From an uncultured Bacteroidales bacterium (GTDB taxonomy: Bacteria; Bacteroidota; Bacteroidia; Bacteroidales; F082): a DNA stretch of 64,000 nt. Below are positions 9,896-26,903 of the stretch, one piece after another. Location: the NCBI GenBank assembly GCA_947166105.1, contig CAMVCZ010000013.1:1-64000 (forward strand), in the 5' to 3' direction. Position 1 is the first letter of the stretch. Each line of letters opens with the position of its first letter. The translations under genes and the position numbers were made by a program. The notes under the pieces are model-generated. The model saw nothing but the letters and a program-made list of their open reading frames with translations. It was not told the origin of the DNA and searched no databases.

Positions 9896-10120
9896 ATGTC
9901 TGTTCATATCGGAAAAGCTATCAAGAAAAAGATGAAGGAGCGCGGCCTGACCGTAATCGGTCTGTCTCGTGAGTTGGGCTGCCATCGCACCAACATATAC
10001 CGTATTTTTGATTCACCTACCGTGGATACAGGTGTTTTACATAGGCTTTCTTCCATATTGCACTATGATTTTTTTAAGATTTATTCCAAAGATTTGGAAT
10101 CAAGGATTGACGAAAAATGA
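9896..10120 (+). CDS. Small helix-turn-helix DNA-binding protein
   Basis: The 74-residue product (start MSVHIGKAIKKKM, ATG at 9896) has a XRE/Cro-like helix-turn-helix: residues about 5-55 with KERGLTVIGLSRELGCHRTN and IYRIFDSPTVDTGVLHRLS. It is basic and has no other domain. It follows the structured RNA and precedes a perfect palindrome at 10136-10171, which is a natural candidate for its operator. It may control itself and the ten-gene kinase/FHA operon that starts at 10257. The link to that operon is inferred from position only. Confidence 0.7.
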   Translation: MSVHIGKAIKKKMKERGLTVIGLSRELGCHRTNIYRIFDSPTVDTGVLHRLSSILHYDFFKIYSKDLESRIDEK

Positions 10121-10135
10121 ATTATTGCGACAATG

Positions 10136-10171
10136 TGTAGCGGAATTGTGACATGTCACAATTCCGCTACA
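10136..10171. promoter_or_regulatory. Perfect 36-bp palindrome, candidate operator or terminator
   Basis: Two 18-base arms (TGTAGCGGAATTGTGACA and its exact complement) meet with no spacer. It lies 15 bp after the HTH gene stop and about 85 bp before the first gene of the kinase/FHA operon. With no loop bases and no T-run it is a poor rho-independent terminator, which favours a protein-binding role. Confidence 0.6.
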
Positions 10172-10256
10172 TACTTATGAGTTTTGTTATGGAAAATTGT
10201 TTTTTCTTTGCAAAAAAATACAAAATACACGAAATTCTAATTGTAATTCATACATT

Positions 10257-11003
10257 ATGTCACAAAACAAAACGAGATTTCCTGGAATGGAAAACGCAGG
10301 TGGTAATCCTTACAATAGAGATGCATACACTAGTAGCGACAATAATTTTAGGCAACCTCCCACGAGACGGAACAATGAAAAGGCGACACGGTTTCCAGGT
10401 ATGGAGGCCATTTCCGAAGAACACCAACAGCAGCAAGCCAACGACCAACATGATCCAATAGTCGGATTCTTGTTCTCGGTGTCGAGAACACCGTTTGGGG
10501 AATATTGGCCTCTTTATCTTGGTCCTAACAAGATAGGTCGAGCCGTTCATAATTCAGTGAGTTTGCCAGAAGGATCGGTTTCGGGCGAACATGCAAACCT
10601 CGTTATTGAGCAATATACCAATCCCAATGTGACCATTGCTGTTTTGGAGAACAAAGGTTCCAAAAACGGCACATTCGTAAATGGAAAACCTGTTTTCTAT
10701 GGTAGGACAGAAGAATGTAAGAACGGAGATATTCTCCGCTTTGGTAGCAGTTATGAATGTTTGCTCACTTTGATTGATGTCAGAGAATTGGGCTTGAAAA
10801 AAGCAGATGGTTTCATTTCGGTTGATATTGAGGAAGAACAGGATTCCAACGACTGGGACGATTGGAGTGCTGATGATCCTTACAAACGTCGTGATAATGA
10901 GCAGGACATGCCTTTCTTCAATCAAGGGACACAAAAAGGCACAACTCCAATGAGTGGCTCTACTCCTTATGGTGGAGGAAAACATAAAACCGAACTCATG
11001 TAA
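10257..11003 (+). CDS. FHA-domain phosphothreonine-binding protein (cytoplasmic)
   Basis: The 248-residue product has a disordered N-terminus with a duplicated motif (TRFPGME at residues about 5-11 and 44-50) and one FHA domain at about 75-180. FHA hallmarks are present: KIGRAVHNSVSL, SVSGEHANL and KGSKNGTFVNG (Arg, Ser-x-x-His and Asn-Gly positions). The tail is acidic, then Gly/Ser/Thr-rich, ending KTELM. FHA domains bind phosphothreonine peptides, so it likely reads kinase output. It is the first gene of a co-directional run, 12 bp before the first kinase. The ATG at 10257 is preferred over 10197, which lies in the promoter-like TTTCTTTG region. Confidence 0.88.
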   Translation: MSQNKTRFPGMENAGGNPYNRDAYTSSDNNFRQPPTRRNNEKATRFPGMEAISEEHQQQQANDQHDPIVGFLFSVSRTPFGEYWPLYLGPNKIGRAVHNSVSLPEGSVSGEHANLVIEQYTNPNVTIAVLENKGSKNGTFVNGKPVFYGRTEECKNGDILRFGSSYECLLTLIDVRELGLKKADGFISVDIEEEQDSNDWDDWSADDPYKRRDNEQDMPFFNQGTQKGTTPMSGSTPYGGGKHKTELM

Positions 11004-11015
11004 TATTGTATAGTT

Positions 11016-12626
11016 ATGTCAGTAATCAGATTACAGAACAGTAGTGGTGATAATATCTATTATGAATTTGACCCTGCACAAAAGCCGTTGGGTGAGGGTG
11101 GTATGGGACGGGTATTTCGTGGAATTCAGATAGATGATAGCAATGGCTCCAACAGGAAACGCGATGTGGCCATCAAACTGCTGTTCGATGACCTTCCTGA
11201 ACATGCCATTAAAAGGGCGCGACGTGAAGCCTCTGTCCGCATCAAAAATGACAATCTCGTCGAGATGATAGATTTCGTGGAAAACTGTGACGAAATTACA
11301 CATTCGATACATTATCATGTAGTCAGCGAGTTTCTCAATGGGGTGAATCTTGACGAAATGCTTGAAGGAAAGATAACAAATCACGATGGAAGCCGAAATC
11401 CTACAGCAGAAAGACTTCTCAATGCATATAATAATCGCAGAAAGGCTTTTGCTGGAGAGGTGTTCAGAAGTATTTTGTCTGGCATTATGGCACTGCACGA
11501 TGCGGGTTACATTCACCGCGACATTGACCCTTCAAACATCATGGTGACAACTGAAGGTCAAATCAAGTTAGTCGATTTCGGCATTGCAAAAAAAGTGAAC
11601 GAGTTAGGCACCAATGACAAGCAACTGACTTCAGCAGGACTGTTCGTGGGGAAGACACATTATGCCGCTCCTGAACTGTTGCTTGGTGACCTTCAACATC
11701 AAAACCGAACAACAGATGTCTATTCTCTTGGTATTACATTGTTCCAGTTGATCACTGGTCATTTGCCTTTTGAAGGAACGTTTCAGGAAGTGTATGAGAA
11801 GCAATTGCACGAGAAACTTCCTTTAAAAGAAGTAGAAGATAAAACGGTGCGTAAAATTATTGAGAAAGCTACTGAAAAAGACCAAAAAAAGCGTTATCAG
11901 AGTGCTTCCGAGTTTCGAGTTGACATAGACAACTGGATGGCGTTGCATACTGAGAGCAATGATACAAAACGAGTTACGTTGGATTTAAGTATTCCAAGGC
12001 CCAATTCAGATTTCAAAAAGATTGCACTTATTGCTGCGAGTGTTATGATTTTTGCTGTGGCTTCTTTTTTTATTGTTAAGACAATTATTAGCAATGGCAA
12101 TAGTGATGATTATGTGGGTTCTCAAGGCGCTCCAAATACTTTATTTAATTCGCCCACACCGAAAGAATTGAGTGTCAATCAGATTAGAGATCTTCTCATG
12201 GAAGGAGACTCGAAGAAAATTGAAACGCTTAGGAATATGTCCCTTCAGGGCGATTATAAAGCTTCTTTCCTATTGAGCCGAGTTTATTTCAATCCTGAAG
12301 ATGTGGTAAAAGAAGGTGCTGGATTTTACAATGAGGATTGGACAACTATTCGAAACAAGTGCGGTATTGAGCCTGACAACGCTAAAGCGCATCACTATTT
12401 GATGAGTGCATATCAGACCGATGAAGGGAAAAAAGACCCAGTATTGCTTTACGAATTAGGCTGCGACTTTATGTATGAAGGCAGAGGTGCGACTAAAGAT
12501 TGGGGAAAGGCTCGTACTTGTTTTGAAGCGGTAGACAAATTGGTGAACTCAGATTCGCTCTACAAAGAAGCCGTTGCAAACAGACTGAGGAGAATTGGGA
12601 AAACCCTTGCAAAACCAATCGAATAA
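11016..12626 (+). CDS. Membrane Ser/Thr protein kinase with atypical catalytic loop and Sel1-like C-terminus
   Basis: The 536-residue product has a Hanks-type kinase domain (about 20-310): GEGGMGRVFRG loop, VAIK lysine, DFGIAKK and YAAPELLLG. The catalytic loop reads HRDIDPSN (His167-Asn174), so the usual Lys two residues after HRD is Asp171. A transmembrane helix follows (about 333-355, IALIAASVMIFAVASFFIV), and the C-terminal part resembles Sel1/TPR-type repeats (AKAHHYLMSAYQTDEGKKD, LGCDFMYEGRG). Kinase inside, repeats outside is the likely topology. It lies 12 bp after the FHA gene and 19 bp before the second kinase. Confidence 0.9.
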   Translation: MSVIRLQNSSGDNIYYEFDPAQKPLGEGGMGRVFRGIQIDDSNGSNRKRDVAIKLLFDDLPEHAIKRARREASVRIKNDNLVEMIDFVENCDEITHSIHYHVVSEFLNGVNLDEMLEGKITNHDGSRNPTAERLLNAYNNRRKAFAGEVFRSILSGIMALHDAGYIHRDIDPSNIMVTTEGQIKLVDFGIAKKVNELGTNDKQLTSAGLFVGKTHYAAPELLLGDLQHQNRTTDVYSLGITLFQLITGHLPFEGTFQEVYEKQLHEKLPLKEVEDKTVRKIIEKATEKDQKKRYQSASEFRVDIDNWMALHTESNDTKRVTLDLSIPRPNSDFKKIALIAASVMIFAVASFFIVKTIISNGNSDDYVGSQGAPNTLFNSPTPKELSVNQIRDLLMEGDSKKIETLRNMSLQGDYKASFLLSRVYFNPEDVVKEGAGFYNEDWTTIRNKCGIEPDNAKAHHYLMSAYQTDEGKKDPVLLYELGCDFMYEGRGATKDWGKARTCFEAVDKLVNSDSLYKEAVANRLRRIGKTLAKPIE

Positions 12627-12645
12627 AGATTTAATCCGAATAATC

Positions 12646-13584
12646 ATGCCACCCAACCAAAATAGAAAGACGGTGTTTCAACGCCCAGGAGACCCATATT
12701 TATACTTATATGTGGAGCGGGAATGGTATTGCTATGACCCTAATGAGGAACCATTGGGCAGTGGTGCCATGGGGACGGTTTGGCGCGGCTATCGTGTGAA
12801 GAATGGCGATCTAATTGCCATAAAACGTGTGAAGGACGAATATGTCAATATTCCTATTATTCGCGAACGTGCGCGTTTGGAATCTTCAATGGCTTTCCGT
12901 CATCAGAATCTTATAGAGATGATTGGCTGTTGCATGGTTCATCCCAATAGAGGTCCTATTTGGCTGTTGAGCAAATTTGTTTCTGGCGAGGAGATAGACA
13001 AGTTTGCCAAAAGGTTTTCTGATGTGGAAACAAAAGTTGAAGTTATTTCAAAACTTATATGTCAAGTGCTTAATGCTTTGGAATATATCCATGCCAACGG
13101 TATCATTCATCGTGACATCAAGCCGTCGAATATTATGATTGAGGAAGGTTCAAATGCCAGGTTGATGGACTTGGGCATTGCACGTATGAGTGGCGGTAAC
13201 AAGTTTTCGCAATCGGGCTTCATCGGAACGCCCCAATATGCAGCCCCCGAACAGATTACCCGAGATACTAATAGTATTATCCCAATCAATGCAGCTACAG
13301 ACATTTACGCGCTTGGCGTGACCTTTTACGAATTGTTGACTGATTTGAATCCTTTTGACAGCGAAAGCGAAATGGAAACTTTGACACGCCAACTGCGTGA
13401 TCTTTTGCCGAAAAGCGATCTGATTCCCAAGAGGTTGATGCAGGTGCTACTAAAGGCAACAGAGAAAGAACAGCCCAAACGATATCAAACAGCCGCCGAG
13501 TTTCGGGATGCTATCATAGTGGCAATGGTACCTCCTCCGACAATCTGGCAGAGGATGGGAAGCTGGTTTTCAGGAAAATCATAA
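12646..13584 (+). CDS. Soluble Ser/Thr protein kinase
   Basis: The 312-residue product is almost entirely a Hanks-type kinase: GSGAMGTVWRG, IAIKRVK, HRDIKPSN (His155-Asn162), metal-binding segment DLG (Asp175) instead of DFG, and YAAPEQIT. No transmembrane segment or sensor domain is present, only an N-terminal segment (PGDPYLYLYVEREWYCYDPNEE-like) before the kinase. It may be recruited by the FHA proteins. The ATG at 12646 avoids overlap with the upstream kinase; an upstream ATG at 12595 is in frame. PP2C follows after 18 bp. Confidence 0.9.
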   Translation: MPPNQNRKTVFQRPGDPYLYLYVEREWYCYDPNEEPLGSGAMGTVWRGYRVKNGDLIAIKRVKDEYVNIPIIRERARLESSMAFRHQNLIEMIGCCMVHPNRGPIWLLSKFVSGEEIDKFAKRFSDVETKVEVISKLICQVLNALEYIHANGIIHRDIKPSNIMIEEGSNARLMDLGIARMSGGNKFSQSGFIGTPQYAAPEQITRDTNSIIPINAATDIYALGVTFYELLTDLNPFDSESEMETLTRQLRDLLPKSDLIPKRLMQVLLKATEKEQPKRYQTAAEFRDAIIVAMVPPPTIWQRMGSWFSGKS

Positions 13585-13602
13585 ACAGAAACAAGAAAGA
13601 AA

Positions 13603-14604
13603 ATGGAATTGCATCAAATTAATACAAAACTGCCGTTTGTATGTTTCGGCGAGTCGCGCATCGGGGGACGTCCTGAGAATCAGGATTCGTTTGGTTATGC
13701 GGATACCAAATTCGGCCTATTAGTCACCGTTTGTGATGGTATGGGTGGTGGACCCGGTGGCAAGGCAGCTTCAAGTATTGCGGTCAAAGAAATCATCGAT
13801 GGAGTGTTGGAAACCAGCGGTGATGAGACACCCTCAAATGCTTTGCTGAAAGCGATTCATCGTGCCAATCACGCTATATTGGAAGCTGTGGATGAAAACC
13901 CGAAACTGAACGGTATGGGAACCACCTGTACGGCACTTTTAATTAATAAGGTGTCGGCAATTGTTGCTCATGTGGGTGACAGCCGGGTTTATCAGTTACG
14001 TGGTCGCCGCAAAGTGTTCCGAACTTTCGACCATTCCATGGTTTTTGGGCTAGTGAAGGAGAAAGTCATCACTGAAGAACAGGCGCGTCTTTCAGAGCAG
14101 TCGAACATTATTACCCGTGCACTTGGCTTAAAACCCGAGCTTGAAATAGACATTACGGAACGACCCTACGAAAAGGGTGACCGCTTTATGCTCTGCACCG
14201 ATGGCATCCACGGCACCATGCCGGAGCCTGAACTGATAAAGAGAGCTACTGACGACGGAAATTTAGGCCAAGTCGTGGACAATATCGCCACCTTCGTTGA
14301 CGGCGAAGGAAGAAAAATAGGCGGTGGCCACGACAATCTCACTTTAGTTATCATCGAAACTCAAAACCATTCAATACTCAAGGAAAAAATGAGCAAACTC
14401 AACAAAATCATCCTAATAGGCATTGCGGTACTACTGACCGCGAGTGTTGTGCTGAATATCACACAATGCTCAAGAATCAAGAAAAACGTAGGATTGGAAA
14501 TGGGTAGGACCATAGTGTACGATTCTATAAGGTTCAAAGCCGACTCGACCATAGATGTCCATTCCCAAGGAACACATTATCAATTCATCATGAAAAAGAA
14601 ATAA
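13603..14604 (+). CDS. PP2C-family protein phosphatase, membrane anchored
   Basis: The 333-residue product has the PP2C metal-binding motifs: GRPENQDSF near residue 25, CDGMGGGPGG (Asp45), HVGDSRVYQL, LCTDGIHG and GGHDNL (Asp244). A single helix (about 265-287, IILIGIAVLLTASVVLNI) follows, then about 45 residues outside. It should remove phosphates put on by the two kinases in this operon. Kinase-phosphatase-FHA grouping is a known pattern in bacterial phospho-signalling. It starts 18 bp after the second kinase and ends 10 bp before the next FHA gene. Confidence 0.92.
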   Translation: MELHQINTKLPFVCFGESRIGGRPENQDSFGYADTKFGLLVTVCDGMGGGPGGKAASSIAVKEIIDGVLETSGDETPSNALLKAIHRANHAILEAVDENPKLNGMGTTCTALLINKVSAIVAHVGDSRVYQLRGRRKVFRTFDHSMVFGLVKEKVITEEQARLSEQSNIITRALGLKPELEIDITERPYEKGDRFMLCTDGIHGTMPEPELIKRATDDGNLGQVVDNIATFVDGEGRKIGGGHDNLTLVIIETQNHSILKEKMSKLNKIILIGIAVLLTASVVLNITQCSRIKKNVGLEMGRTIVYDSIRFKADSTIDVHSQGTHYQFIMKKK

Positions 14605-14614
14605 ATATCATATT

Positions 14615-15562
14615 ATGAAAACTTATTCAATTGGAAGAGACAATGCCTGCGACATCGTGCTGAATGACCATACCGATGTCATCAGCAGGCGCCATGCGGT
14701 GATTACCGTGTCGTCATCGGGAAAGATGACCATCACCGACCAAAGTACCAACGGCACATATATCAATGGTCAGAAGATTTCATCCAATGTGCCGGTTCCT
14801 GTTACCCGTAAAGATTCTGTCTCATTTGCCCATGTTTCAACACTTGATTGGAATATGATTCCAAAGTCAAGCAAGGTGGGAACATATCTGTTCATTGGTC
14901 TTGCTGTGGCAATTGTGGCGGCATTAGCCATATTCTATTTCCTGCGTGAAAAGCCTGTCAAGCCTGTTCAAGACGAACCACTTGTCGTGGACACCATAAA
15001 ACCAGTGGAAGCCCCCACTTATAAAGTGACCTTTGATCCCAACGAAGGTCAAGGAACGATGGAACCTCAGCAAGTTCCGATCGGCAAGAAAACGGGTCTT
15101 GTTGGAAACACTTTCACCCGTGAAGGCTATGACTTCATTGGATGGAACACACAAGCCGATGGAAAGGGCACTGCCTATGAAGACAAGGCTACGGTGACAT
15201 TCAAAGGTGACATCACACTGTATGCCCAATGGAAACAGCGTACCCATAAGATAACCTTTGTCCCCAACGCCAATAATGTAAGAAACAAAATGGCGGAGCA
15301 AGAGGTTGTGGAAGGCACCGATACGGAAATTGCCCAAAATGAATTCAAGCGGAAGGGCTTCACTTTTGTCGGGTGGAACACACAAGCCGATGGCAACGGC
15401 ACTGTGTATGCCGACAAGGCCTTGGTGAACCTGAAAACCGACCTTAAACTCTATGCACAATGGAAATCGAATGGCAGTAGCAAGACGGATGATTCCGGGC
15501 AGAAAGGAAAAACGGGTACGGGTGAAAAAGAGACACCAGATAAAGGTCTGGGTAGATTTTAA
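14615..15562 (+). CDS. Membrane FHA protein with two Listeria-Bacteroides repeats
   Basis: The 315-residue product has an N-terminal FHA domain (SIGRDNACDIVL, VISRRHAVI, DQSTNGTYINGQ; residues 1-80), one transmembrane helix (about 90-112), and two Listeria-Bacteroides (InlB B-type) repeats: about 135-208 and 210-288, each ending in TLYAQWK or KLYAQWK and containing FIGWNTQADG or FVGWNTQADG. The tail is polar. An FHA domain inside the cell joined to extracytoplasmic beta-grasp repeats suggests a way to pass a phosphorylation signal across the membrane. Partner on the outside is unknown. Confidence 0.88.
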   Translation: MKTYSIGRDNACDIVLNDHTDVISRRHAVITVSSSGKMTITDQSTNGTYINGQKISSNVPVPVTRKDSVSFAHVSTLDWNMIPKSSKVGTYLFIGLAVAIVAALAIFYFLREKPVKPVQDEPLVVDTIKPVEAPTYKVTFDPNEGQGTMEPQQVPIGKKTGLVGNTFTREGYDFIGWNTQADGKGTAYEDKATVTFKGDITLYAQWKQRTHKITFVPNANNVRNKMAEQEVVEGTDTEIAQNEFKRKGFTFVGWNTQADGNGTVYADKALVNLKTDLKLYAQWKSNGSSKTDDSGQKGKTGTGEKETPDKGLGRF

Positions 15563-15597
15563 TTTGGATATAAATAACAATAAAATCAGATACTATT

Positions 15598-17208
15598 ATG
15601 AGTTTAAGAATTGGAAGTTCGCCCGAGAACGATATAGTGTTCAATAGCAAAAAAGTAAGTGGGCGTCATGCAGAAATTGCTGTACTCAACAATGGAGATA
15701 TTCTCCTTAAAGATAAGAACAGTACCAATGGCACCTTTGTAAACAATCAACCTGTCCAACCAGGGGTGTGGGTGCCGATTCGCAGGGGAGACCTCGTGCG
15801 TTTTGCGGACATGGAACTCCAGTGGGCCTCGGTGCCGCAAGTCAACTATGGATTGTTCAAGAAGATTTACGGTATCGGTAAAAATGCGCACTATAATGAG
15901 ATTGTAGTGAATGGCAACACCGTGAGTGATTTCCATGCCACGTTAAAAATCGACAAACAAGGGCATGCCTTTATCGAGGACCATAGTCTGAATGGCACCA
16001 CGGTGAATGGCAGGCGTATCACTGCGCATCAGGACTTTCGTATCAAGCGTAGTGATGCAGTGGTTGTTGGTGGAGTGCCTGTCAACCTGACGAGTTTTAT
16101 ACCACCCGAAATTTGGCTAAACGTATTGAAAGTTGCGGGAGGTATCGCTGCTATGGCCGCAGTGGTGGCATTGGTGGTGATGCTGATTAAACCTAAGGAG
16201 TCTCAACCCAAGACCAATCTTGTCGACCAACCGACTGTTGACACCACCGTAACGCAAGTTCCCAAGATTGTCAATCCTTCAATTGATGACTTGTGGAATG
16301 CCACGGTTTATGTGTATGGTGCGTTCAAGGTGGACTTGACCATCAAGAATGACCCGTTCAAAGGCCGTCCTGGTTGGCCTGAAGTATGGGAATTCGGATA
16401 TACCCGGAATGGTGGCTGGGAACTCTTCGGGGAAAACGCTTGTTGGTATTCGGGTACGGCGTTTTTCGTCTCTCCATACGGCGAGATGGCCACTAACCGG
16501 CATGTCGCCTATCCTTGGCTTATGGGAGTAGTTGACGATGAGAGTGTAGTGACAGAGATCAAGGCCCAAATGATTACCATTTTCAACCGTCTCCTGAACA
16601 GGGATTACTTCCAGAGCAATCTTGGCATTAATTATAACAACGAGGGCGACAGATCAAAGATGCAGCTTCTGCTCCAGTCCGATTTCGAAATTTCAGGTCA
16701 CCACGAATTCCTTGGAGTGTTACCGCCTCATCAGACCTTCAGCTCCACCAAAGATTTTTTGGACTGTAAGCCCATTGCAGAGTCGGGTGACTCCAAGAAG
16801 GATGTGGCTCTCTTGAGATTGAACTCTCAACAGACTCCCCCTGATATTGTGAAAAATGGTTATTACCGACTGGAAAACGCTCGTGTTGACCAAACCACAA
16901 TTGAGTTGAACGAGCCATTGAATAGCATCGGCTATCCTACTGGACAGTTTTTGAGCACTTTTATAGGAAATGCCAATGAAAGCACACCAACGTTCACCAA
17001 CCTCACCGTGAGCAAAAGACCCGATGAATACCAGTTCCAGGCCCAGGGCCTCAGCATTGGAGGCGCTAGCGGATCTCCAGTTCTTGACAAAGACCGTAAC
17101 CTCGTAGGTGTGCTATGGGGACGTGCAGGTGCTTCCGACCAAGTCGTGTTTATCTGCAACATCAAGCATTTTATTGAAATATACGAAAAACATAAAGTAA
17201 TGAAATGA
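15598..17208 (+). CDS. Membrane protein with two FHA domains and a trypsin-like serine protease domain
   Basis: The 536-residue product has FHA domain 1 (residues 1-80: RIGSSPENDIVF, VSGRHAEI, NSTNGTFVNNQ), FHA domain 2 (about 85-170: GIGKNAHYNEIV, VSDFHATL, LNGTTVNGR), a transmembrane helix (about 178-200) and an extracytoplasmic trypsin/HtrA-like protease. A plausible triad is His302 (TNRHVAYP), Asp402 (KKDVALLRL) and Ser491 (GGASGSPV). There is no PDZ domain. Fusion of phosphopeptide readers to a protease across one membrane suggests regulated proteolysis in the periplasm. The next gene starts on a 4-bp overlap. Confidence 0.88.
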   Translation: MSLRIGSSPENDIVFNSKKVSGRHAEIAVLNNGDILLKDKNSTNGTFVNNQPVQPGVWVPIRRGDLVRFADMELQWASVPQVNYGLFKKIYGIGKNAHYNEIVVNGNTVSDFHATLKIDKQGHAFIEDHSLNGTTVNGRRITAHQDFRIKRSDAVVVGGVPVNLTSFIPPEIWLNVLKVAGGIAAMAAVVALVVMLIKPKESQPKTNLVDQPTVDTTVTQVPKIVNPSIDDLWNATVYVYGAFKVDLTIKNDPFKGRPGWPEVWEFGYTRNGGWELFGENACWYSGTAFFVSPYGEMATNRHVAYPWLMGVVDDESVVTEIKAQMITIFNRLLNRDYFQSNLGINYNNEGDRSKMQLLLQSDFEISGHHEFLGVLPPHQTFSSTKDFLDCKPIAESGDSKKDVALLRLNSQQTPPDIVKNGYYRLENARVDQTTIELNEPLNSIGYPTGQFLSTFIGNANESTPTFTNLTVSKRPDEYQFQAQGLSIGGASGSPVLDKDRNLVGVLWGRAGASDQVVFICNIKHFIEIYEKHKVMK

Positions 17209-18692
17209 TGAAACATTGTCTTACACTTGTTATGGCAGTTTTGCTGTTCACCTTCTCTATTCACGCCCAAACCGTGAAATGGTGCATCCATCCTGAATAC
17301 GATGATATTACATATTTCGGGGAAGACCTCTTCAAATGTGTAGACCGTTCAGGGAAGGTGCAACTTATTAACTGGGACGGCAAGGAACTACTCCCTGTTG
17401 ATGCGGATGCCGTTACGGATTTCGTTGAAGGTTATACCATTGTACTCCAAGGAAGCAAGATCAAAGGTCTCCTTGCCGAAACCAACGGACATAGCTTTCA
17501 ATTAGTGACAGGCGATTATTCAATAACGCAATATCCGTTTTTCTCAGAAGGGCTTCTTGCTGTTGTCAATGGTGAAGGTAAGATGGGCTATATGGATGCT
17601 CAAGGCAAGATTGTCATTCCTTGCAAATATGTTGAGGCACGCCCTTTCAAACAGGGTTGGGCTTCTGTCGAAAAGAAAAAGAAAGAGGTTTGGTATGTCA
17701 ATCCTCAAGGCAGAGAGATGAGGCCTGATGGATTTCATGGAGGCAAACTCACAAAAGGTTCAAGTTTTAACGAGTATGGTGAAGCAGTGGTGGCCAATTA
17801 TCAGGATTATGCTATCATCGGAAGCAAAATGCAGGTGAAACGAAAGATAAAATACACACCCGAATTACCTGTACGTTCGTGCGATTATTCCTATGCAGAA
17901 AAGGCTGGGGGCGATTGTTATGAAACAGGCGTCTTTGAATTAGAGGAAGATAATCGTATTGAGAGTTATTCAAAAAATGGCGTCTATGGTTACCGATGGA
18001 ATAATAGTGGAGAAGAGAATGGACTTCCTGCCCAATTTAATGATGCACAGCCATTTTTTAAGGGTCGTGCTATCGTTGCAAAGAACGGAAAGTATGGTGT
18101 GCTTGAATTGTTGGAAGGCGAATTTGTTGCAAATTGGCCAAAGGATTTGCGAGTATATCCCGATGGCAAAAGTAATCTCTTGCGATTTTCGCTTGAAGTA
18201 CCTTCTTCGCTTGATAGTAAACAAGTTGACCTCGAATTTGATGAAGGTAATGGAAACTATGAGAAAAGCACGCCGTTAAGCTATGAGTTTAGGCCTAATC
18301 TTTCACATGGTTCAAATTATTGTACTTTAAGGGGAAAGGCTACCTGTGAAGGGCTTCTGCTTTGGGATAGTTCGGAGGACATAAAAATCAACCGTATTTC
18401 TATCGACATCAAACGTCCTACTGTAACCACTGAATTTGCAGATGAAAATGACGAACAAATTGTGCGAGCTGTCGTTACGAACGAATCTAACGTTAGTGTT
18501 TCGGTGGAAGCGACACTCAAGGTGGCTGGACATACTACACCATTTAAAGGAATGCTTAAACCTAAGCAGTCTAAAGAATTATTTGTAAAGGTGAAAGTGA
18601 CGGAGTCGAAACAGGTTCCGGCTTCGGTGTCGGTTAGGGTTGATGGCCATGCTTGCGGAGACGAAACATCTCAAGTTTCACTGAAAATATAA
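17205..18692 (+). CDS. Exported WG-repeat protein
   Basis: The 495-residue product has a signal peptide (MKHCLTLVMAVLLFTFSIHAQ). Residues about 40-330 hold WG-type repeats, seen as GYMDAQGKIVIPCKYVEARP, CVDRSGKVQLINWDGKELLP and GVYGYRWNNSGEENGLPAQF. The last 100 residues look like an Ig-like or CARDB-like beta domain (RAVVTNESNVSVSVEATLKV). WG repeats are thought to form solenoids for protein contact. ATG codons at 17205 and 17208 are both possible; the first gives an ATGA overlap with the protease gene, which supports translational coupling. Confidence 0.85.
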   Translation: MMKHCLTLVMAVLLFTFSIHAQTVKWCIHPEYDDITYFGEDLFKCVDRSGKVQLINWDGKELLPVDADAVTDFVEGYTIVLQGSKIKGLLAETNGHSFQLVTGDYSITQYPFFSEGLLAVVNGEGKMGYMDAQGKIVIPCKYVEARPFKQGWASVEKKKKEVWYVNPQGREMRPDGFHGGKLTKGSSFNEYGEAVVANYQDYAIIGSKMQVKRKIKYTPELPVRSCDYSYAEKAGGDCYETGVFELEEDNRIESYSKNGVYGYRWNNSGEENGLPAQFNDAQPFFKGRAIVAKNGKYGVLELLEGEFVANWPKDLRVYPDGKSNLLRFSLEVPSSLDSKQVDLEFDEGNGNYEKSTPLSYEFRPNLSHGSNYCTLRGKATCEGLLLWDSSEDIKINRISIDIKRPTVTTEFADENDEQIVRAVVTNESNVSVSVEATLKVAGHTTPFKGMLKPKQSKELFVKVKVTESKQVPASVSVRVDGHACGDETSQVSLKI

Positions 18693-18732
18693 AAAATAGA
18701 TCAATAACTAACTAAATTAAAATCATTAAATT

Positions 18733-19374
18733 ATGCGTAAACATTTGTTATTTGTTATGCTTGCAGTACTATGCTGTAGCAGCCTATTCGCACAAGAGTG
18801 CGAGGACGACAGACCCTATCGAATTGCTTTAGGGCCGAAAGTAGGGATTGGTTTGGATATGGGAAGCCATTCCAAACAAGAGAATTTGGATTTCGGAATG
18901 GGATTTGGATACCAGGTTGGTGCCGTGTTCAATGTCCATTTTGGACGCCGTTATGAAATGAGTTGTGGAGGAACTGGATGGTTCGGCCTGCAAGTCGAAG
19001 CCATGTATGGTGGCCGTAACATTAAACTCGGATCCACAAGTTTGGGAACGAGTTGCCTTGAAGTGCCCATTTTGGCACAATTGTATGTCATTCCGAATCT
19101 CGCTATTGAAGCTGGTGCCACAATGGTAAAGGTGTTTGGTGCATCACCTGACCAGCTTAACTATCAAGGAGTCACTTATGGCACGGGTGAAATCAAGGGT
19201 AGCGATGTAATGATAACCGCTGGTTTAGCCTATAAGACATCTATCAATACGAGTTCATCGTTGATGATGGATGTGCGTTACAACTTGGGTATGAGCCCGT
19301 TGGCAGGTAACTTCGACACCAAGGTCAGTTCGCTCATGTTCTCGTTTGTTTATCTTTTCAACATTGTCAAATAA
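18733..19374 (+). CDS. Outer-membrane beta-barrel protein
   Basis: The 213-residue product starts with a signal peptide (LLFVMLAVLCCSSLFAQ) and shows alternating amphipathic strands with aromatic ends (GLQVEAMYGGRNIKLG, SDVMITAGLAYKTSI, SLMFSFVYLF), typical of small PorT/OmpA-like barrels of Bacteroidota. It lies in the kinase/FHA operon, 40 bp after the WG-repeat gene and 9 bp before a lipoprotein gene. Its job there is unknown; it could form the outer-membrane end of the system. Confidence 0.78.
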   Translation: MRKHLLFVMLAVLCCSSLFAQECEDDRPYRIALGPKVGIGLDMGSHSKQENLDFGMGFGYQVGAVFNVHFGRRYEMSCGGTGWFGLQVEAMYGGRNIKLGSTSLGTSCLEVPILAQLYVIPNLAIEAGATMVKVFGASPDQLNYQGVTYGTGEIKGSDVMITAGLAYKTSINTSSSLMMDVRYNLGMSPLAGNFDTKVSSLMFSFVYLFNIVK

Positions 19375-19383
19375 CCAAAAATA

Positions 19384-20376
19384 ATGAAAGTCATGAAGAA
19401 ATATATGATTATGTGCATGGCAGTGGTTGCCTTGCTGTTTGCATCTTGTAAAAATGAAGACATTTCGATTTCGAGAGAAGTCAATTTTGAAGTGAACCCA
19501 TACAAAGTTATATCTGAGTTTTCTCAACATCAAGTAAATGACGATGATTTTGATTTTTTGAGTGGTGATTGGTTGCGTGTCCATTTATTCGTTTATGATA
19601 CTAAGGGTGATTTGGTTGCCTCGGATGTTCAATTCCTCAGCGGATACCGTTCAACGATGAATTCATCTTTTAATCTTGCAGATGGCAATTATATAGTGGT
19701 TGCGACTTCTGATGTTACATCATTGAGCAATGGGAATGTGTCATTCGAGTATTGGGAGTTTTCTGGAATGAACCGTCTTGCAGATTTGAGAATTACGGAT
19801 GCGAGTGGATTGATAGGGGGGGATGATAAGATTTTAGGTGTTACGAGTAATCAAGTCTCGGTAAATGCAAATAATGTTAATCATTCAATTGATGTGAATC
19901 CTGCGGGAGCGTTGTTCTTAGTTCATACTAATGGAATTCACAATTTTAGTGACGTGATTTCTTATCACCTTTATGTTGACAAGAACTCTGATTATTGTTC
20001 TTTTGGGAACGATGGCACTATGATTCCGACAATCAATGCTGGGACTACTTATAATTGGCAATTATCAACGCAAAGCACAAGCAGTTCAGGGAATAACTAT
20101 TATTCATATAGGTTTGTTCTTCCTTTGGGTAATACTAATTTTATCTGGTTTGCGAAAATTAATGATGATGGTTCAGGATACTTATTGGACGATACACATA
20201 ATCAGGTTAATGTTAAGTTGGGAAAGATGTACAATTGTATTTTCGATATTCCAAATTTGACTTGTGATTTATACGAATTCACAGATGGTATGAAGTTTTA
20301 TTTGCCATCCGGGTTTGAAAATAGTCGAAAATTGGGACAATTCAAAAGTCTATCCATGGACAAATCTGTTAAATAA
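19384..20376 (+). CDS. Lipoprotein, FimB/Mfa2-like
   Basis: The 330-residue product has a lipoprotein signal (VVALLFASC, Cys near residue 22). The early mature part (WLRVHLFVYDTKGDLVASDV, NLADGNYIVVATSD) resembles the FimB/Mfa2 fimbrial anchor family, which has a transthyretin-like fold; similarity is by pattern only. A second ATG at 19393 is also possible. It sits between the barrel gene and the last gene of the operon with gaps of 9 and 6 bp. The region is more AT-rich than its neighbours. Confidence 0.6.
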   Translation: MKVMKKYMIMCMAVVALLFASCKNEDISISREVNFEVNPYKVISEFSQHQVNDDDFDFLSGDWLRVHLFVYDTKGDLVASDVQFLSGYRSTMNSSFNLADGNYIVVATSDVTSLSNGNVSFEYWEFSGMNRLADLRITDASGLIGGDDKILGVTSNQVSVNANNVNHSIDVNPAGALFLVHTNGIHNFSDVISYHLYVDKNSDYCSFGNDGTMIPTINAGTTYNWQLSTQSTSSSGNNYYSYRFVLPLGNTNFIWFAKINDDGSGYLLDDTHNQVNVKLGKMYNCIFDIPNLTCDLYEFTDGMKFYLPSGFENSRKLGQFKSLSMDKSVK

Positions 20377-20382
20377 TTGCCT

Positions 20383-21627
20383 ATGAAGAAACAAATAATG
20401 ATTCTGGCCTTGGTCGTTGGCTGTATGCTGACGGCCAAAGCTCAAATCGTGCAGACTATGACCCTGAAAAACGGCTCAAAGTTGCATGGTTATATGAACA
20501 AACAGACAGATGTCAGTGGCATCATTTTTTATGCCGAATACGCTGAAATTATCATGGATGGCCAGAAAGTGAAGAACATTAGTGGCATAAAAAAGTCCTA
20601 TAATAGTTTGCCCGAAGAATGGAAACACTATGCCGACGAGAACGAACTTTTGGACAAGAATCGCGAATTGACGCTCAGCAGTATCGACACGGGCGGTATG
20701 ATTAACAATGTCCTCATCCTTGAACAAGGCAAGACGATGAAGTATATCGAGCTGAAACATTATTATGCCTTCCGTTTGTCTGATATCGCTTTCGTCGAGT
20801 ACCCGACGAGGGACGAGTTGCTGCTGACCGGAATCGACCGAATCCTAACCGTGAAGGATGGCAACACAACGAGGATTATTAAAGGTCAGTGCATTAAAGA
20901 GATACCTGGGTTGGAAACGTATCTTCTGAAAGAAGACGGGGTGGTGGAGTCTATTGACATAAATAATCTTGTGAAAGACAACGCTATCAAGCATAACCCT
21001 AACCAGTCTCTTTTTGAGCAGAGTAGGTTGCTTGACAAAATCATAACGAAGGAAGGTACTGAATATGTTGGCATTATTACCGAACGCAATTACGAGCTTG
21101 CCAATTATTGTTTCGTAATCACTATGGAAAGTGGTGGAGTGGAATCTACCCAAACAGTTTGGATGGATAAGGTGATTGAGATAAGCAAATTGAACAATCC
21201 TAAGTATAAGGAAGTGCGAGACATTAAACTAAATCCTGGTATAATTATGGTGAACCGCAATGAAGTTGAGCAGGAATCTTTGAGTGAACAGAACGGGATG
21301 TTTGTGATCACACCATCAATGAAACGTGTGGATCTTAAGTTAGATGGTAAGGAACTTGATATTGATGTTGAAGCTAACTTTAAAGACATGAAAAATGCGG
21401 TGGACAATTATTTTATCAAGGTAAAGCCCTCAGACAAAAAGGATAGGAAACGAAAAGGTTTATTCTTCTTTAGTTACCGAGATATGATTGAATCTGCGTT
21501 TTCTCCTATTGAAACTGTGACAAGCATGAATAATACAACGAAGATTTCTTACAGAGTGAACTCAACGGGGCTTTATGTGTTTTTTAACTCTAACACGAAA
21601 AAAGCAGTTGTGATTAATGTGGAATGA
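20383..21627 (+). CDS. Exported protein of unknown function
   Basis: The 414-residue product has a signal peptide (QIMILALVVGCMLTAKAQ) and no domain I recognise. Several short segments repeat a pattern of a charged strand plus a turn (MTLKNGSKLHGYM, LTVKDGNTTRIIKGQ, KIITKEGTEYVGIITE), which suggests repeated beta units. The C-terminal 110 residues are Lys-rich then beta-rich. It is the last gene of the run and is followed 30 bp later by a strong terminator. The ATG at 20383 follows the lipoprotein stop by 6 bp. Confidence 0.7.
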   Translation: MKKQIMILALVVGCMLTAKAQIVQTMTLKNGSKLHGYMNKQTDVSGIIFYAEYAEIIMDGQKVKNISGIKKSYNSLPEEWKHYADENELLDKNRELTLSSIDTGGMINNVLILEQGKTMKYIELKHYYAFRLSDIAFVEYPTRDELLLTGIDRILTVKDGNTTRIIKGQCIKEIPGLETYLLKEDGVVESIDINNLVKDNAIKHNPNQSLFEQSRLLDKIITKEGTEYVGIITERNYELANYCFVITMESGGVESTQTVWMDKVIEISKLNNPKYKEVRDIKLNPGIIMVNRNEVEQESLSEQNGMFVITPSMKRVDLKLDGKELDIDVEANFKDMKNAVDNYFIKVKPSDKKDRKRKGLFFFSYRDMIESAFSPIETVTSMNNTTKISYRVNSTGLYVFFNSNTKKAVVINVE

Positions 21628-21656: not shown

Positions 21657-21686
21657 AAATGCCGCTTGGGAATCCGAGCGGCATTT
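21657..21686. terminator. Terminator closing the kinase/FHA operon and arcA
   Basis: Perfect 10-bp stem AAATGCCGCT (21657-21666) / AGCGGCATTT (21677-21686), continued inward by GGG/CCG pairing. It lies between two converging genes, so it can serve both. Confidence 0.75.
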
Positions 21687-26732: not shown

Positions 26733-26737
26733 CAAAG

Positions 26738-26811
26738 TAGCGGGGATGAGAATTGAACTCATGACCTCCGGGTTATGAATCCGACGCTCTAACCAACTGA
26801 GCTACCCCGCC
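26738..26811 (-). tRNA. tRNA-Met (anticodon CAT)
   Basis: Read on the minus strand the 74-nt sequence folds as a cloverleaf: acceptor GGCGGGG/CCCCGCT (first pair G-U), D arm with AGCTCAGTTGGTTAGAGC, anticodon CAT at 26775-26777 in loop TTCATAA, and T arm ATGAG-TTCAATT-CTCAT. The start is not the unpaired C-A of initiator tRNAs, so it is an elongator Met tRNA, or less likely the Ile tRNA whose CAT is modified to lysidine. CCA is not encoded. It has its own promoter and terminator. Confidence 0.95.
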
Positions 26812-26824
26812 GTCTTTCGGGTTG

Positions 26825-26854
26825 CAAAAGTAGAGAAAAAATCAATACGAACAA
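26825..26854 (-). promoter_or_regulatory. Promoter of tRNA-Met
   Basis: Minus strand: TTG (26852-26854), 19 bp, TACTTTTG (26825-26832), 13 bp before the tRNA 5' end. Confidence 0.75.
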
Positions 26855-26855
26855 T

Positions 26856-26887
26856 AAAAAAGCGGAAAAATATTTTTCCGCTTTTTT
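26856..26887 (-). terminator. Terminator of the phosphoglucomutase gene
   Basis: Near-perfect AT-flanked palindrome (AAAAAAGCGGAAAAAT and its complement) 17 bp after the stop, with a T-run on the minus strand. Confidence 0.8.
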
Positions 26888-26903
26888 ATCAATGCTTTAA
26901 CTA

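Follow-up and report, generated by a model that had tools for sequence, protein, structure and literature searches.

What does a bacterium regulate with an operon that encodes Ser/Thr protein kinases, a protein phosphatase and FHA proteins together with a protease and components of the outer membrane? This question is raised by ten genes, g02 to g11, located at positions 10257 to 21627 on contig CAMVCZ010000013.1 of an uncultured Bacteroidales bacterium (GTDB lineage Bacteroidales; F082; assembly GCA_947166105.1), whose positions 1 to 64,000, read on the forward strand, we analysed and refer to as the window. A preliminary description of this stretch had proposed that phosphorylation inside the cell controls proteolysis or assembly outside it and had mentioned the control of type VI secretion systems (T6SS) as a known analogue. 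Our own reading, held with roughly even confidence, is that the operon constitutes an autonomous trans-envelope phosphosignalling cassette which would act in analogy to the threonine-phosphorylation pathway of T6SS and which, in the present organism, would control proteolysis in the cell envelope.

Organisation of the operon and properties of the encoded proteins

In the list of open reading frames (ORFs) of the window, ten co-directional open genes fill the region from 10257 to 21627, the nine gaps between them amounting to 12, 19, 18, 10, 35, -4, 40, 9 and 0 bp. This agrees with the ten closely spaced genes (-4 to 40 bp) of the preliminary description, except that the start given there, 9896, is that of an eleventh gene, g01, which encodes a helix-turn-helix (HTH) protein and lies 136 bp 5' of g02. 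We consider the ten-gene operon real; its spacing predicts that g02 to g11 are transcribed as one unit. All four FHA domains detected in the draft genome reside within it.

Pfam searches against family cut-offs back each named domain of g02 to g09, in the order proposed before (FHA, kinases, phosphatase, membrane FHA proteins, WG repeats, barrel); transmembrane (TM) segments and signals were assigned by hydrophobicity and individual residues by alignment of relatives. All genes of the operon lie on the forward strand. The first, g02 (10257 to 11003), encodes a soluble FHA protein (PF00498, 1e-12). It is followed by a Ser/Thr kinase with one TM segment (residues 336-354) and a predicted periplasmic tail (g03, 11016 to 12626; PF00069, 7.5e-38), a second, soluble Ser/Thr kinase (g04, 12646 to 13584; PF00069, 2.2e-42) and a PP2C-type phosphatase with a C-terminal TM segment (residues 269-287; g05, 13603 to 14604; PF13672, 2.8e-17). 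Next come two membrane-anchored FHA proteins. In g06 (14615 to 15562) an FHA domain (8.2e-19) and a TM segment precede Listeria-Bacteroides repeats (PF09479, 2.4e-27), while g07 (15598 to 17208) combines two FHA domains (PF00498 twice, 2.3e-31), a TM segment (residues 179-197) and a trypsin-like Ser protease (PF13365, 1.2e-9) which is predicted to be periplasmic. The four remaining genes encode an exported WG-repeat protein (g08, 17205 to 18692; PF14903, 1.5e-21), an outer-membrane beta-barrel (g09, 18733 to 19374; PF13568, 5.2e-12), a lipoprotein whose lipobox LFASC was recognised by eye (g10, 19384 to 20376) and an exported protein built of K-[ND]-G-S-x-L-x-G-like repeat units (g11, 20377 to 21627). 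Neither g10 nor g11 matches a family above cut-off, and sequence searches of solved structures gave no firm match for either. Hence, g03, g05, g06 and g07 each have one hydrophobic TM segment and g08 to g11 N-terminal signals, that of g08 being hydrophobic. The Bacteroidetes Q-rule, as given in PMC5837995, expects Gln after the signal cut. At cut sites judged by eye, three of these four proteins, g08 included, carry Gln after the likely cut; the fourth is g10 with its lipobox.

The active sites of the signalling proteins are conserved among the related operons described below. All 11 g03 sequences keep the catalytic residues K, D, N and D, all 11 uncut g04 copies the tested catalytic residues and all 12 g05 sequences nine tested conserved residues. 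In g06 the residues of the FHA domain which contact phosphothreonine (G-R, S-x-x-H, N) are intact in all 12 sequences. The protease triad of g07, H302, D402 and S491, is invariant in 17 of 17 sequences, five of which stem from the distant family f136, and its motifs are present in the Phocaeicola massiliensis protein as well (motif check only). By contrast with these residues, the periplasmic tail of g03 differs among relatives.

Conspicuously, the motif M-x-x-x-[KR]-T-x-x-P-G-M opens g02 in all 11 relatives; in G051 the ORF caller picked an upstream start, behind which the motif lies. T6, P9 and M11 as well as a Thr near the C-terminus, with three residues behind it in the window protein, are invariant in all 11, and the P. 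massiliensis copy agrees. The g02 proteins of the window and five relatives each contain two copies of a T-x-x-P-G-hydrophobic pattern which is otherwise rare: among 784 ORFs of the loci, two unrelated ORFs share it, as does an FHA protein encoded in another cluster that is present in two genomes; one further ORF of the window has it, too. Judged from this conservation, the threonines of the N-terminal motif and near the C-terminus are putative phosphorylation sites.

Recurrence of the gene set in related genomes

The FHA-protease g07 was searched for in 149 genomes of the family and g11 in 99 genomes of the genus; the samples of the order and the phylum comprised 393 and 395 genomes. The operon is present in eight of the 99 genus genomes, that of the window included, and the order sample adds four genomes, one from each of four other families. 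Together these are 12 genomes from five families, to which a record of the named species P. massiliensis is added (OY726067.1, locus L189). The set thus consists of 13 operons (the window, 11 genomes and the P. massiliensis record), and the 12 relatives were recounted. Present in all 13 are g05, g06, g07 and g11, and also g04, whose copy in G407 is cut by the contig end; g02 and g03 occur in 12, the exception being again G407, where the contig stops first. The WG protein g08 is encoded in 12 operons (all except G103), the barrel g09 in 10 and the lipoprotein g10 in nine. G112, where g10 was not found, encodes a different lipoprotein, which is cut by the contig end. In P. massiliensis the operon adopts a compact version consisting of g02 to g08 and g11.

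The preliminary description had named, as an outcome that would speak against it, exported genes not conserved next to the kinase/FHA genes. They are conserved there: even in relatives that share only about 25% identity they stay beside these genes and hence travel with them. Full-length matches to g11 lie exclusively inside operons, both among the 99 genus genomes (8 of 8) and among the 393 order genomes (6 of 6); weaker matches (E of at least 8e-10, partial profile) in three further genus and 49 further order genomes concern other, mostly smaller ORFs. In Bacteroidales g11 is therefore an operon marker. The constant part of the set is made up of kinase, PP2C phosphatase, FHA readers and FHA-tethered protease, joined by g11 in the operons of Bacteroidales, while the varying set of envelope proteins and neighbours fits a general trans-envelope switch with exchanged outputs. 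Also variable is the outside part of g06. The Listeria-Bacteroides repeats noted in the preliminary description hold for the window and are found in four of the 13 operons (window and G165 by Pfam, G132 and G051 by alignment); in seven other scanned operons g06 has the FHA domain without the repeats, and the alignment reveals none in G112 and G103.

Outside the class a simpler core is found. At E of at most 1e-20, 14 of the 395 phylum genomes, two of them already known, match the g07 profile, and eight of these belong to family f136. We viewed the loci of all eight and of G762 and G744, leaving out G700 and G874. In five of the eight f136 genomes the FHA-TM-protease is encoded beside FHA, PP2C and kinase genes (Pfam check of one cluster). 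No kinase cluster is present at the protease locus of G762 and G744, and g08 to g11 were not found in any of the f136, G762 and G744 clusters viewed. The presence of bchL in one f136 genome, of the type whose protease stands alone, suggests that f136 represents green sulfur bacteria.

Some features of the surroundings may be recorded. A Peptidase_C14 (caspase-like) gene is located directly 5' of the operon in G132 and G051 (L038, 15404-16552; L039, 15032-16180), both of which possess a second g03-like kinase gene behind g11, and the operon of G112 has RHS-repeat proteins as neighbours. Other clusters of FHA, kinase and PP2C genes exist in family and order genomes (L042-L050, L111, L112); small ORFs and FHA proteins of very large size are features of some. 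We set these clusters aside as relatives since the match ranges and lengths printed for them include no match to the protease part of g07. Plasmid searches, for which g11 and the g07 proteins of both the window and G089 served as queries, yielded one relevant record, OY726067.1. As this record encodes aconitase and citrate synthase within 10 kb of the operon, we read it as chromosome; its plasmid label may be wrong, and we do not claim carriage by plasmids or mobile elements.

Relation to type VI secretion

The scanned ORFs of the window comprise no T6SS genes, as the preliminary description had stated, and neither TssC (PF17541) nor TssD was detected in the draft genome, which is 97% complete. 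PF17482, which represents other contractile systems, found nothing there, though it missed the three T6SS-bearing genomes described below, too. With 43.4 and 52 bits, g06 and g07 remain below the cut-off of 120.25 of the TagH/Fha model TIGR03354, in a scan that did not include g02. In P. massiliensis, 41.6 kb around the operon contain no match to a T6SS protein.

T6SS is nonetheless of relevance, since T6SS genes directly adjoin three of the 13 operons, namely those of G089, G428 and G443, which are all the operon genomes with TssC and TssD. The ClpV gene starts at a distance of 17 bp (G089), 8 bp (G428) and 27 bp (G443) from the module gene that precedes it and is followed by genes for a protein at the TssB position and TssC, and in G089 and G428 by that for Hcp; in G443 the contig stops within TssC and Hcp begins another contig. 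The cluster of G089 continues with VgrG, a TssK-like protein (below cut-off), a kinase-FHA fusion, a g03-like kinase and a WG protein, and that of G428 is syntenic with it. An M23 peptidase is also encoded at both loci (L147 in G089, L148 in G428); the kinase-FHA fusion was checked in G089. In a tree of five core proteins these three genomes group with G103, which lacks TssC and TssD, at a bootstrap value of 100 without and 92 with P. massiliensis; g07 alone gives 91 for this group, and g05 alone fails to recover it. In the joined relatives the operon probably controls the adjacent T6SS.

The window operon could accordingly be an orphan T6SS control arm whose T6SS was lost or is missing from the draft. 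The 8 to 27 bp junctions speak for this explanation, as does G103, which groups with the joined relatives yet has no TssC or TssD, as loss would predict, and so do the kinase-FHA fusion and the extra g03-like kinase within the T6SS cluster of G089. On the other hand, the 97% complete genome of the window offers neither TssC nor TssD. Furthermore, the eight genomes outside the T6SS group which lack both genes, the window's among them, keep the tested active sites (the kinases of G407 being cut) and g08 to g11, save g10 in G112. TssC is found in 13 of the 99 genus genomes and 17 of the 393 order genomes. Of the 13 in the genus, 12 do without the operon, and in the order sample the full operon and TssC coincide in two genomes. 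Among the operon-free TssC genomes (12 in the genus, 15 in the order sample) the T6SS clusters of five were viewed (G134, G171, G162, G556, G105), and none has a kinase/FHA match within 20 kb. We consider an orphan control arm unlikely.

Proposed mechanism and points against it

Under the autonomous-cassette reading which we favour, g03 would sense a periplasmic input through its variable tail and, together with the soluble g04, phosphorylate the threonines of g02 within [KR]-T-x-x-P-G-M and near its C-terminus. The phosphothreonines would be read by the FHA domain of g02 and, chiefly, by that of the membrane-anchored g06, and the PP2C phosphatase g05 would reset the switch. The resulting complex might recruit or reshape g07, with its FHA pair inside and its Ser protease outside, whereby the cytosolic phosphorylation state would set the proteolysis of envelope partners, candidates for which are g08 to g11. 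In the T6SS-free genome of the window the output would consist of the protease and the envelope proteins. What the sequences show directly is the content, order and conservation of the genes, the conserved active-site residues and the T6SS genes beside three of the operons; the control of proteolysis by phosphorylation is inferred, and so are the phosphosites, the topology, the signal, the substrates, the sequence of events and the direction in which control runs.

Several observations weigh against this reading. The FHA domain of g02 is devoid of the Arg in three and of the Asn in four of 11 relatives, and in all 11 g03 sequences the position two residues behind HRD, usually a Lys, is occupied by Asp. 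In g07, FHA2 has K, S or T in place of the Arg in all 12 Bacteroidales sequences and FHA1 has Ser in nine of the 12, whereas the f136 sequences retain the Arg (FHA2 5 of 5, FHA1 4 of 4 readable). Because this Arg is mostly lost in Bacteroidales, direct docking of the g07 FHA pair to phosphothreonine is doubtful in this lineage; with the corresponding residues intact in g06 and the Arg lost in g07, it is g06, not g07, that would be the reliable phosphothreonine reader here, and recruitment of g07 may take place by shape. The earlier proposal that phosphorylation inside acts on proteolysis outside is compatible with the predicted topology and the intact catalytic residues and is, overall, supported in part. 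In addition, three of the eight f136 genomes possess the protease domain alone, with no FHA or kinase neighbours. With respect to T6SS, the operon and TssC coincide in one of the 99 genus genomes (eight with the operon, 13 with TssC), which corresponds to chance level. Finally, between G089 and G428 the T6SS core proteins share 65-97% identity and the module proteins 25-61%; between G089 and G443 the values are 91-96% for ClpV, the TssC piece and the protein at the TssB position, and 24-56% for the module. With similarity so much higher among the T6SS proteins of the three loci, T6SS and module have not evolved simply as one unit. The reason would be either a much stronger constraint on the T6SS core or a spread of this core between lineages at a later time than that of the module.

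In a wider, more tentative formulation, which we hold with clearly less confidence, the operon would be a transferable cassette distributed across several Bacteroidales families, with a simpler core outside the class, in which FHA proteins couple cytosolic threonine phosphorylation to a protease beyond the inner membrane; one group of it would have become associated with a Bacteroidota T6SS and serve as the control unit of the latter. In bacteria, FHA proteins are generally regarded as intracellular readers. A conserved FHA-TM-Ser protease within a kinase/phosphatase operon renders inside-to-outside control of proteolysis testable, and the T6SS-free relatives, in which the control module stands alone, make sensor and protease accessible without the weapon.

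Comparison with known systems

In the T6SS threonine-phosphorylation pathway, as outlined in PMC11881912 and PMC3953482, an outer lipoprotein and a periplasmic protein feed the kinase PpkA, Fha becomes phosphorylated and PppA reverses this. The operon shares with this pathway a membrane kinase, a PP2C phosphatase, an FHA reader and exported or outer-membrane partners in one locus, and in three relatives a T6SS next door; kinase, PP2C and FHA protein are encoded together in the window and in the relatives alike. It differs by its two kinases, three FHA proteins, transmembrane FHA-protease, WG protein and barrel, and no domain or family scan made named a TagQRST relative. The operon may hence work like the T6SS pathway, but since no T6SS and no TagH/Fha match above cut-off was obtained in the window genome, we do not file it as a member.

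The T6SS beside the three operons matches the Pfam models of TssC and TssD, which we take to be built on Bacteroidota systems. Bacteroidota T6SSiii with the gut architectures GA1-GA3 is treated in PMC10781749 and PMC4714493, in whose main texts the terms kinase and FHA do not occur; GA loci have TetR regulators. The three joined loci point to control by phosphorylation in the T6SS of Bacteroidota, for which these main texts name no protein kinase; if this is true, the joined group provides this secretion type with a phosphorylation pathway previously unrecognised in it. Among the matches listed in a search of the open-access literature by title and opening of the abstract, none concerns a T6SSiii linked to kinases or an operon with an FHA-TM-protease.

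With the tethered proteases DegS and MarP, g07 has in common an N-terminal membrane anchor and a trypsin-like triad outside, but it differs by its cytosolic double FHA and yields no PDZ match. It reaches 15.5 of the 250 bits set for the MarP model NF033740, and Trypsin_2 alone passes the Pfam cut-off in its protease part. In GarA and OdhI the FHA domain is preceded by a short Thr motif at the N-terminus. The same arrangement is present in g02, which differs by the motif [KR]-T-x-x-P-G-M itself, by the extra Thr near the C-terminus and by its setting beside a membrane kinase.

Further explanations

The barrel and the lipoprotein invite a second alternative, according to which g10 and g09 build a fimbria-like surface appendage whose subunits are matured by the protease, with the kinases timing its assembly. 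Gingipains are known to mature fimbrial subunits. The two genes are neighbours in nine of the 13 operons, and g10 has a weak local match to the solved structure of a putative adhesin (E 0.096). Nevertheless, no fimbrial family (fimbrillin or Mfa2 type) of Pfam or NCBIfam matches g10 over cut-off, and neither g09 nor g10 was found in the operons of P. massiliensis, G428 and G443, hence they are not part of the core. Appendage assembly thus appears quite improbable.

Less probable still is an anti-phage defence function of the KKP (kinase-kinase-phosphatase) or kinase-abortive-infection type. KKP systems are prophage modules in which FHA is fused C-terminally to one kinase and a cold-shock domain to the other (PMC11341870). 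Like KKP, the operon has a triplet of two Hanks kinases and PP2C encoded consecutively; moreover, both kinases match PADLOC kinase models, as is expected of any Hanks kinase, and the distribution is patchy (eight of 99 genus genomes). Unlike in KKP, FHA is unfused to the kinases, searches up to an E of 1 having revealed neither FHA nor a cold-shock domain in g03 and g04. The four exported genes are poorly explained by defence, and g07 matches no phage record, in a comparison that extended neither to the KKP proteins themselves nor to prophage genes near the operon. A catalogued defence system was rejected since, among the matches listed, PADLOC gave those of shared domains alone (kinase, one PP2C, weak trypsin part); 34 kinase models matched each kinase, the best 25 of 34 being viewed.

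Flanking elements

Least likely of all is outside-in sensing of envelope stress, in which the protease would cleave a partner on damage, thereby activating the kinases, and g01 would regulate the operon: TagQRST-PpkA senses outer-membrane damage in P. aeruginosa (PMC11881912), and an HTH gene and a perfect palindrome lie in front of the operon, but the former is found in four of 12 relatives and the latter is not conserved.

The HTH gene g01 (9896 to 10120, forward strand) encodes a small Cro/C1-type protein of 74 amino acids (PF13443, 1.6e-5, over cut-off) and is likely a local regulator. Relatives of it occur 5' of the operon in G138, G112, G132 and G165 and were not found before that of the other eight, where ORFs below 60 amino acids were not called. 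Between g01 and g02 a perfect palindrome of 36 bp extends from 10136 to 10171 (18-bp arms, no loop), whose inner 28 bp occur once in the window and in none of 100 shuffles. It is a possible operator of g01. Since it was not found in front of the relatives' operons, we rejected a role as conserved operator. The strong terminator of the preliminary description corresponds to a terminator-like hairpin on the forward strand (21657 to 21686) with a 13-pair stem, a 4-base loop and a T-rich tail, which starts 30 bp past the operon end at 21627. Terminator-like sites as such are not enriched in that stretch (18 found, 17.5 expected from shuffles); the stem is the longest among them, the runner-up having seven pairs.

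Elsewhere in the window's genome (G000), a second pair of PP2C and kinase genes, without FHA there, is located on contig C10 (37734-40279). The palindrome in front of g02 has a single counterpart in the window, likewise perfect and 36 bp long, which is AT-rich and lies at 26854-26889 near a tRNA-Met gene (26737-26811).

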